Of a DNA stretch of 43,513 nt, positions 20,027 to 23,581 are shown piece after piece (within the stretch, counting starts at the first letter, position 1; each line of letters starts with the position of its first letter). Origin of the DNA: Dehalococcoidia bacterium (lineage in GTDB: Bacteria > Chloroflexota > Dehalococcoidia > Dehalococcoidales > UBA2162); assembly GCA_011191975.1 (NCBI GenBank), contig DUFA01000023.1:1-43513 (forward strand). The letters run 5' to 3'. A program made the position numbers and the translations under genes. The notes under the pieces were generated by a model. The model saw nothing but the letters and a program-made list of their open reading frames with translations, had not been told where the DNA came from and did not search any database.

Positions 20027-20113
20027 AGACCGTCTGGTAACGAAAATAGTATACTGGTAATGACAGGCAGGCTTATTCCAGAAAGAACATAAGAATATAT
20101 AGAGGTGTGTGAA

Positions 20114-21364
20114 GTGACATTAGTTGAAAAAATTCTAGCCGTCCATTCGGGAAAGGACAGAGTAAGTCCTGGAGAATTCATCAACGCCAGGGTCGATGTC
20201 ATACTGGCTAATGATATAACGGCACCGATAGCTATCAAGGAATTCAGGAAGATAGGTGTCGATAAGGTTTTCGATCCTTTAAAGATAGTAATGGTGGCCG
20301 ACCATTTTGTACCGAATAAAGATATACTTTCGGCTGAACAGGCAAAGTTCATGCGAGATTTTTGTCTCGAGCAAGGTATAAAATGCTATGACGTTGGTGA
20401 AATGGGTATTGAGCATGTGCTGCTTCCCGAAAAGGGTATAGTACTTCCCGGAGATGTGATTATAGGAGCTGACTCGCATACATGCACTTATGGCGCTATC
20501 GGTGCGTTTTCAACCGGAATGGGTTCGACCGATATCGCTTCAGCAATGGCAACCGGATATATCTGGATGAAAGTACCCCAAACAATTAAGTTCGTGTATA
20601 ACGGTACATTGAGTAAATGGGTTGGCGGTAAGGATCTGATACTTCATACTATTGGCGATATAGGTGTGGACGGTGCTCTGTATTCGGCTATGGAGTTTAC
20701 CGGTAAGGCTATTAGCAGCCTCCCCATGGATGGACGATTCACCATGGCAAATATGGCTATTGAAGCCGGAGCGAAAGCAGGAATATTCCATGTAGACGGA
20801 AAAACGTCAGCTTATCTCAAACTGCGTGCGAAACGGGAATACACCATTTACGAACCGGATATTGATGCCGAATATGAAAAGGTTATCGAGTACGATGTTT
20901 CTTCACTCGAACCGCAGGTATCTCTTCCCCATTTACCATCCAATGCCAAACCGGTTAGCCAGGTAAAAGGCATAAAAATCGATCAGGCTGTAATTGGCAG
21001 CTGTACTAATGGTCGTCTGGAAGACCTGAGACTTGCTGTCGAGGTACTGAAAGACAGGCATGTACACCCGCATGTGCGTTGCATAATCATTCCAGGAACT
21101 CAACAAGTGTATCTTGACGCATTGAAGGAAGGTATTATCGAAAAACTCTTAAAAGCAGGTGCAGCTGTAAGTACACCTACTTGCGGACCATGCCTGGGCG
21201 GTCATATGGGTGTATTGGCAGAAGGAGAAAAATGCATATCTACAACCAACAGAAATTTCGTTGGTAGAATGGGACACACGAAATCTGAAGTATATCTTGC
21301 CAATCCGGCTGTGGCTATGGCAAGCGCTATTACCGGTGAGATAACCAGGCCTGATAACGTATAA
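20114..21364 (+). CDS. leuC: 3-isopropylmalate dehydratase, large subunit
   Basis: Aconitase-family subunit isomerising 2- to 3-isopropylmalate with LeuD. [4Fe-4S] ligands are in [11 protein letters not shown] and [13 protein letters not shown]. About 416 residues fits the HacA/LeuC type of anaerobes and archaea. Two GTG starts are possible (20105 and 20114). I chose 20114 because GAGG lies 8 bases upstream and the N-terminus MTLVEKILA fits the family; for 20105 the purine tract is too close. The small subunit follows after an inserted MGMT-like gene. Confidence 0.94.
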
Positions 21365-21399
21365 TGCTGGCTGGCATTCTAAGTACGCCTAAAACGGAC

Positions 21400-21433
21400 G
21401 AAGGATCTCCTTTCAAATGAGATAAGATCCTTC
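21400..21433 (+). terminator. Hairpin between leuC and the MGMT-like gene
   Basis: GAAGGATCT (21400-21408) pairs with AGATCCTTC (21425-21433), followed by TTTCC. An alternative inner stem ATCTC/GAGAT (21405-21409 with 21419-21423) competes with it. It may attenuate transcription into the next genes or be a processing site. Confidence 0.45.
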
Positions 21434-21484
21434 TTTCCGAAAACATCGGAACTCAGGATGACATACTCTCAGGAGGTGAAGTTG

Positions 21485-21961
21485 ATGGCTAAACTAAAGA
21501 AATCCTGGAAAGAGAAACTGCACGAAGACAGGAAAACTGAAGTTGTCGAGATAACCGGGAAAATGAGTCAGAAATGGGGAACCGGCACTTGTGTGATACC
21601 GGCACCAATGGAAGTAGATGAACTTATGAGAATGGTTCCCATGGGAAAACTGATAACGATCAACCAGATAAGAGAGACGCTGGCGAGGAGACATGGCGCT
21701 ACGATTGGCTGACCTATCACAACCGGCATTTTTGCCGGGATCGCGGCACGTGCGGCCGCTGAAGATGAAGCCGAAGGAATCCATGAGATTACTCCTTACT
21801 GGCGGACTTTAAAATCAAAAGGTGAACTGAATGAGAAGTACCCCGGAGGACTTGAAGGACAGGCAGAGCGGTTAGAAAAAGAAGGACATACAATCGAGCT
21901 TGACAGGAAGGGAAAACCTAAAAAGGTAAAGGGCTTTGAGAAAAGCCTGATCGAAGTGTAA
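21485..21961 (+). CDS. MGMT-like DNA-binding protein with in-frame TGA (Sec candidate)
   Basis: Small protein of the MGMT/ATL C-terminal winged-helix family (DNA-binding domain of O6-alkylguanine methyltransferases). The ATG at 21485 has AGGAGG 8 bases upstream. The frame is open for 158 codons except one TGA at 21710-21712 (codon 76). Before it come the wing-HTH ([22 protein letters not shown]); after it [28 protein letters not shown] and [11 protein letters not shown], all family blocks. Homologues, as I recall them, read GATI(G/A)CPITTGIF, so TGA replaces the conserved, probably reactive cysteine. Sec insertion is one reading; a nonsense mutation or sequencing error is the other. A stop at TGA would leave 75 residues. 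Confidence 0.75.
21723..21759 (+). promoter_or_regulatory. Hairpins just after the in-frame TGA
   Basis: Stem one is CCGGC (21723-21727) with GCCGG (21734-21738), loop ATTTTT, starting 10 bases after the TGA. Stem two is GCGGC (21743-21747) with GCCGC (21755-21759), loop ACGTGCG. Bacterial SECIS elements lie in this place, but neither loop has the G in the first two positions that is usual, so SECIS identity is doubtful. Confidence 0.25.
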
Positions 21962-21980
21962 ACACCGAGGAGATTTAATA

Positions 21981-22484
21981 ATGCTGGAAGGAAAAGTACA
22001 TAAATTCGGCGCGGACGTAAACACCGATGAGATTATCCCGGCTCGATACTTGTATCTCTCCGAACCGGATGAGCTGGCAGAGCATTGCATGGAAGATATA
22101 GACGCTGATTTTTTGAAAAAGGTTGAACCGGGAGATATCATAGTGGCTACCACCAATTTCGGTTGTGGGTCGTCCCGTGAACATGCCCCTATAGCCATAA
22201 AAGCTTCAGGCATATCATGTGTCATTGCGAAAAGCTTTGCCCGTATATTCTTCCGAAATTCTATCAATATAGGTTTACCATTGCTTGAATGCGAGGAAGC
22301 GGTGGATGGAATAGAAAATGGTGATGTAGTGGAAGTCGACCTCGCGAGGGGTATGATAACAAATACCAAGAGTGGCAAGATATACGCAGCCAAGCCGTAT
22401 CCCGGATTCATGGGAGAGCTTATCGCTGCCGGCGGTCTTATAGAATATACAAAGAAAGAAGTTGAAAAACTGAGGAGGAGTTAA
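21981..22484 (+). CDS. leuD: 3-isopropylmalate dehydratase, small subunit
   Basis: Swivel-domain partner of LeuC, 167 residues, matching the short archaeal/anaerobe type. Signatures: [12 protein letters not shown] at about 13-24 and [14 protein letters not shown] near 57-70. The stop TAA overlaps the leuB start (TAATG), so the two are translationally coupled. AGGAG precedes its ATG. Confidence 0.96.
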
Positions 22485-23581
22485 TGCAATTCAATATTGC
22501 CGTACTGCCGGGTGACGGCATAGGTGTGGATGTTTGTACTGAAGCGGTTAAAGTATTGAGAACAGTAGGGAAGAAGTATGGTCATGAATTTAAACTAAAA
22601 GAGGGTTTGGTTGGCGGGATTGCTATCGACGAGACGGGTGAACCCCTGCCGAAAGAAACTCTTAAAATATGCAGGATTTCACAGGCGGTTATGCTTGGTG
22701 CAGTTGGCGGTACCAAATGGGACGACCCGAACGCGAAGACCAGACCGGAAAACGGTCTTCTTGAGCTCAGAAAGAAGATGGGGCTGTTTGCCAACCTGCG
22801 ACCTGTAAAAGTATTTCCCATGCTCATAAATGGCACCAATCTAAAACCGGAGATAATCGACGGAGTCGATTTCATTTTTATCAGAGAACTTACCGGCGGT
22901 CTGTATTTCGGTAAGCCGAAGAAACGCTGGGAAACTGCCGGTGGCAGGAAAGCCGTCGATTCGATGCTGTATTCAGAGCAAGAAATTGACAGGATCGTCC
23001 GGGTTGGCTTCGAACTGGCGCGTACACGGGGTAAGAAACTGATTTCCGTTGATAAAGCAAATGTACTCGAGTCTTCACGATTGTGGAGAACAGTTGCGAT
23101 GGAGGTGGCTGGAGATTATCCGGACGTGGAAATCGAGCACATGCTGGTAGATGCCTGTGCCATGCGTATTATCCAGAATCCTAAATACCTGGATGTCCTG
23201 GTTACTGAAAATACATTCGGTGATATTCTTACCGACGAAGCATCGATGCTTGCTGGCTCAATGGGTATGCTGGCATCAGCAAGTCTTGCCGGCGTACCAC
23301 AGGAAGGAAAAGCAATACCGGGGCTCTACGAACCGATTCACGGCAGTGCACCGCGTCGAGCCGGGCTTGACATGGCAAATCCGATAGCAATGATACTCAG
23401 TACGGCGATGATGCTCAGGTATTCCCTGTGCCTAAATGAAGAAGCGAAAGCAGTAGAGGACGCGGTTGAGTCAGTTCTCAATCATGGATATCGCACCTAT
23501 GATATAATGGACGAGGGTAAAACCAAGGTTGGAACAGCCAGAATGGGAGACCTTATAAGCAAAGCCATAGAGGAGAAATAA
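22484..23581 (+). CDS. leuB: 3-isopropylmalate dehydrogenase
   Basis: NAD-dependent oxidative decarboxylation of 3-isopropylmalate to 2-ketoisocaproate. The 365 residues include the N-terminal LPGDGIG block, RPENGLLELRKKMGLFANLRP, the catalytic YS and K regions, and ENTFGDILTDEASMLAGSMG. GLYEPIHGSAP is the cofactor loop of LeuB rather than isocitrate dehydrogenase. It is coupled to leuD at the 5' end and to cimA at the 3' end. Confidence 0.96.
   Translation: MQFNIAVLPGDGIGVDVCTEAVKVLRTVGKKYGHEFKLKEGLVGGIAIDETGEPLPKETLKICRISQAVMLGAVGGTKWDDPNAKTRPENGLLELRKKMGLFANLRPVKVFPMLINGTNLKPEIIDGVDFIFIRELTGGLYFGKPKKRWETAGGRKAVDSMLYSEQEIDRIVRVGFELARTRGKKLISVDKANVLESSRLWRTVAMEVAGDYPDVEIEHMLVDACAMRIIQNPKYLDVLVTENTFGDILTDEASMLAGSMGMLASASLAGVPQEGKAIPGLYEPIHGSAPRRAGLDMANPIAMILSTAMMLRYSLCLNEEAKAVEDAVESVLNHGYRTYDIMDEGKTKVGTARMGDLISKAIEEK

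Follow-up and report, generated by a model that had tools for sequence, protein, structure and literature searches.

The window (the whole 43.5-kb stretch of DNA that was analysed) carries leuC, leuD and leuB on the forward strand, with leuA and ilv genes nearby, and the gap between leuC and leuD (21365-21980) is filled by a single gene at 21485-21961 (+), which runs from an ATG at 21485 to a TAA at 21959-21961. As had been claimed from inspection of the sequence, its 158-codon frame is open on both sides of one in-frame TGA at codon 76 (21710-21712). TGA is normally a translation stop and selenocysteine (Sec) is a rare amino acid, and with the TGA taken as a stop the TGA genes of this family are shortened to 75 residues. 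When the 43.5-kb window was scanned, this was the sole TGA lying outside other genes whose frame is open for 50 codons or more in both directions. The features of the locus, with the evidence for each, are as follows.

20105-21364 (+): leuC (isopropylmalate isomerase large subunit), the conserved upstream neighbour (Pfam, synteny)
21470-21478 (+): Shine-Dalgarno-like sequence, AGGAGGTGA, a short distance 5' of the ATG at 21485 (direct reading of the sequence)
21485-21961 (+): ATL-like (MGMT DNA-binding-domain-like) predicted selenoprotein gene (open reading frame, sub-cut-off PF01035 match, AF2/Foldseek, 96 distinct homologues)
21710-21712 (+): TGA, the proposed selenocysteine codon 76 (TGA/Cys alternation among homologues)
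21723-21738 (+): hairpin 1, CCGGCA-UUUU-UGCCGG, loop 16 nt 3' of the TGA (excess pairing in Sec copies)
21744-21758 (+): hairpin 2, putative SECIS, CGGC-A-CGUGC-G-GCCG, loop 36 nt 3' of the TGA (covarying stem in relatives)
21794-21805 (+): P104-Y105-W106-R107, counterpart of P-C-H-R in MGMT and P-W-H-R in ATL (profile comparisons)
21981-22484 (+): leuD, the conserved downstream neighbour (Pfam, synteny)
22484-23581 (+): leuB (Pfam, synteny)

The protein matches Pfam PF01035 with E 2.8e-5 and 24.3 bits, below the gathering score of 27. A search with the family profile matched 2kif and 3gva, structures of alkyltransferase-like (ATL) proteins, and the AF2 model of the protein (pLDDT 94.6) gave S. 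pombe Atl1 as the best Foldseek match in the PDB, followed by MGMT/Ogt. The single sequence searched against the PDB returned viral envelope proteins, all of them chance matches, and in the Foldseek viral library nothing was significant, the best match being a giant-virus MGMT-domain protein at E 1.5e-3. The motif P104-Y105-W106-R107 is aligned to P-W-H-R/P-C-H-R by the ATL profile match and also by the Ogt profile, the latter being of low probability although consistent, and every one of the 35 aligned members has Y, W or F as residue 105. ATLs have Trp in place of the acceptor Cys (PMC10779285). As the residue at 105 is aromatic, as it is in ATLs, Sec76 is not the MGMT acceptor, and the original prediction was mistaken in placing the TGA at the conserved reactive Cys of MGMT, the acceptor position being occupied by Tyr105. 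Membership of MGMT/Ogt itself was rejected on two grounds, P-Y-W-R in place of the P-C-H-R that holds the acceptor Cys and the PF01035 score below gathering level. From the model and the profile comparisons the protein is predicted to have the MGMT fold, as a divergent member of the ATL branch whose N-terminal part is specific to the family. It shares with the ATLs (S. pombe Atl1, 3gva/3gx4; V. parahaemolyticus, 2kif) the fold and a P-[W/Y]-x-R motif in which an aromatic residue replaces the acceptor Cys, but it differs from them in having an extra conserved N-terminal part and a new conserved Cys/Sec, and in the apparent loss of the base-flipping Tyr and the Arg finger, whose counterparts would be Ile/Val and Gly in an alignment placed by hand across the helix-turn-helix. 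In the AF2 model Sec76 lies immediately before helix 77-96, which is the second, recognition helix of the helix-turn-helix and is hydrophobic and acidic.

Nearly all members of the order have the gene between leuC and leuD, in Sec and Cys forms alike, which together with the character of the recognition helix and the apparent replacement of the Tyr and Arg finger would fit a protein that acts off DNA, with a metabolic function connected with leucine biosynthesis. Against this, the flanks fetched from outside the order show no leu genes in a leuC-gene-leuD arrangement and the ATL motif P-aromatic-x-R is invariant; as the family spans several phyla, the leu operon may be a passenger context. We regard such a metabolic role as possible, at odds of perhaps one in three, and it is compatible with the gene encoding a selenoprotein. 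The junction between the family gene and leuD seems open to insertions, as varying and mostly unrelated genes are found there from one genome to another (L004 3480-5304, L011 3481-4707, L003 3329-3787, L002 3506-3973 and L037 2006-2752).

Homologues came from GTDB species genomes, order relatives, the class and the whole order. Codon 76 is covered by 96 distinct homologues and encodes Cys in 78, is TGA in 13 (the window gene and 12 other distinct sequences), and encodes Tyr in two and Glu/Asp in three; neither TAA nor TAG occurs at this codon in any of the 96. The same TGA is thus found at the exact codon where relatives have Cys, and the earlier statement that relatives have Cys at this position was borne out (GATIGC-PITTGIF). 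In L005, L139 and L146 the codon is for Tyr and in L021, L130 and L132 for Glu/Asp, so that these homologues have no thiol or selenol at this position. A scan of IMG/VR gave three distant copies without TGA; codon 76 encodes Glu or Asp in the two distinct ones listed. In a comparison of seven TGA copies, synonymous differences amount to 0.37-0.89 upstream and 0.44-0.81 downstream of the TGA, and the dN/dS values that could be computed are 0.03-0.24 downstream and similar upstream; values this low behind the TGA indicate that the downstream part is selected as protein. The TGA copies do not form one clade (85-row tree; p-AU 6.9e-5), and the state of codon 76 changes six times in the best 85-row tree and four times in the seven-copy tree, as expected from the Cys/Sec exchange seen in other Sec/Cys families. 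The TGA copy L158 (G901:C243) has a divergent context and weak hairpins, and may represent either an independent gain of Sec or a nonsense mutation.

Hairpins immediately after the TGA had also been proposed, and in the Sec copies there is indeed a specific excess of pairing there. Synonymous codons were randomised according to local usage with the protein kept (3000 randomisations); summed over the 13 Sec copies, pairing was 73 for stem 1 (50.6 +/- 3.2 expected) and 62 for stem 2 (45.0 +/- 2.4 expected), values reached in 0/3000 randomisations in each case, with the proviso that this test ignores kinship among the TGA copies, whose synonymous sites are near saturation. The 69 Cys copies show no pairing excess in the same test. 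For the window copy alone, pairing is above chance in hairpin 1 (p 0.007) and not in hairpin 2 (p 0.46). Stem 2 also covaries (eight double-change cells, 0/500 shuffles), one of its pairs occurring as G-C, A-U, C-G, U-A and G-U and another as C-G, U-A and G-C. In the TGA relatives hairpin 2 has a 5-bp stem around a C-G-[U/G]-G-C loop, and the window has the same loop with an A.G mismatch adjoining it. The absence of a G from the loop, claimed earlier for the hairpins, therefore stands for hairpin 1, with its UUUU loop, and falls for hairpin 2. According to the published bSECIS rule a G is found in the first two loop positions (PMC13188914), and most TGA relatives conform to it, with a C-G-U-G-C loop at 36 nt, whereas the window's own hairpin 2 has its loop G at the third position, the A.G mismatch putting it one position too deep; taken individually, the window copy is most open to doubt at this mismatch. 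Rfam gave no match to the gene region, and the Rfam SECIS_1 model found nothing in the host genome or in the control genomes either, which makes that search uninformative. Compared with the bSECIS elements of fdhA and selD in the same genome, the ATL-like gene is alike in its in-frame TGA, a hairpin shortly after it and a G in the loop, but differs in having two adjacent hairpins and a G-loop at 36 nt, near the published limit of 16-37 nt. A Cys copy nested among the TGA copies (L008 3001-3483), in a genome without a selB match, retains the second hairpin, which is probably a fossil SECIS.

These results bear on the reading in which translation simply ends at the TGA and the gene is a pseudogene whose 3' part is decaying. 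Other genes of the window do end normally at TGA, and three homologues (L100, L102 and L103) are visibly degraded or shortened. Thirteen distinct genes with a stop at the same position, always TGA, are hard to reconcile with chance nonsense mutation, as are downstream nonsynonymous sites that stay conserved while synonymous sites approach saturation, and hairpins specific to the Sec copies. For the family as a whole the shared TGA, the downstream selection and the hairpins in effect refute this reading, and for the window gene we consider it very improbable.

The genome from which the window comes has selA, selB, selC and selD, all four above curated cut-offs, as the original prediction would have it, with selA and selB on one contig. 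This genome is a draft with an estimated contamination of 8.3%; the tetranucleotide correlations of the selAB, selC and selD contigs with the window (r = 0.91, 0.88 and 0.85) are similar to those within the window (0.88-0.90), and its SelD has an in-frame TGA near the N-terminus (KGAG-TGA-ASKIGPG) and its FdhA (formate dehydrogenase) an in-frame TGA followed by a classical hairpin with a GGUCU loop, so that contamination is an unlikely source of error. Genome G006 carries the TGA gene and selAB on a single 232-kb contig. Genome G860 is a single 2.296-Mb contig with the TGA gene at 1,522,449-1,522,919 and a compact selC-selB-selA-selD cluster of about 5 kb at G860:C1:379868-384300 (L184, L185). 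These two genomes settle the linkage of the TGA gene and the sel genes. The SelD encoded in the G860 cluster also has an in-frame TGA. A search of seven TGA genomes found selB in six; the genome of the L010 TGA copy (about 70% complete) yielded neither selA nor selB, and in G422, also a TGA genome, selB was present and selA was not found. The association with selB is not significant by itself (7/8 TGA genomes, with G860 added, and 19/37 Cys genomes; p 0.11) because many Cys genomes have selB too.

It might be supposed that readthrough of the UGA inserts some other amino acid, such as Trp through suppression, or that each half functions as a polypeptide of its own. Relatives have Cys and not Trp at this position, UGA is in use as an ordinary stop, and the sel genes are present and Sec-specific hairpins follow the UGA, while for separate halves one would look for a ribosome site and start codon right after the TGA, and none is evident; we therefore think either variant highly unlikely. 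A sequencing or assembly error by which TGC or TGT was read as TGA, conceivable in a draft metagenome assembly, is hardly credible when the TGA is also present in 12 other distinct sequences, one of them from a single-contig genome.

A Sec-containing methylated-DNA-protein-cysteine methyltransferase (PF01035/COG0350) has already been listed (GOS 2008, PMC2398784), and ABB14497.1 is such a listed protein (PMC9312934, PMC13188914). It resembles the present family in belonging to the same superfamily, in being a predicted selenoprotein and in its Sec/Cys alternation. In genome G537 we found a canonical Ogt (L125, 983-1225, -) with an in-frame TGA exactly at the acceptor Cys (VP-TGA-HRVIG), and this is a second kind of Sec-alkyltransferase: its Sec is at the acceptor of P-U-H-R, whereas in the present family that position is Tyr and Sec precedes it by 29 residues, at the recognition helix. 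ABB14497.1 is presumably of the PUHR type, which would set the present family apart from it. NCBIfam has no model for the present family, and in the main text of the literature searched it is not mentioned as a selenoprotein. From sequence comparison we predict a new selenoprotein family with an atypical twin-hairpin SECIS.

Taken together, the machinery, the alternation of TGA and Cys, the selection downstream and the Sec-specific hairpins strongly support the selenoprotein candidate first proposed. The originally suggested checks that were run all favoured it, and we put the probability that 21485-21961 encodes a selenoprotein with Sec at UGA codon 76 at about 0.92. The product would be a 158-residue selenoprotein in which this UGA is decoded as selenocysteine by SelA, SelB, SelC and SelD under the direction of the downstream hairpins. 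SelB would probably bind hairpin 2, with its C-G-U-G-C loop, and hairpin 1 may serve as a spacer or helper. The recognition helix would carry at its N-terminus the selenol, or in relatives the Cys, and a helix dipole at that point should stabilise the ionised form of a nucleophile. A conserved second cysteine that could form a redox pair of the CxxU type is absent, and as Cys36 of the window protein is not conserved among the aligned members no partner thiol is at hand. Sec76 would then most likely react on its own, as a single residue, with an electrophile or an alkylated ligand, although we propose a reactive-nucleophile role for residue 76 tentatively, at somewhat less than even odds. A bolder version, in which the selenol is a nucleophile relocated to the DNA-facing helix, where it would substitute for the lost PCHR Cys with a novel chemistry of repair or electrophile sensing, and the twin-hairpin SECIS is read by SelB at an unusual distance, seems to us unlikely.

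If the preferred reading, that of a selenoprotein with Sec at codon 76, is right, the catalogue gains a selenoprotein family whose Sec is at a site not known as reactive in the alkyltransferase superfamily, and this would single out residue 76 as the centre of function in a widespread, unassigned MGMT-like family. The atypical pair of hairpins would provide a test case for SECIS predictors, and the occurrence of Sec, Cys and a leftover hairpin within one order would form a natural series for the origin and decay of SECIS elements.
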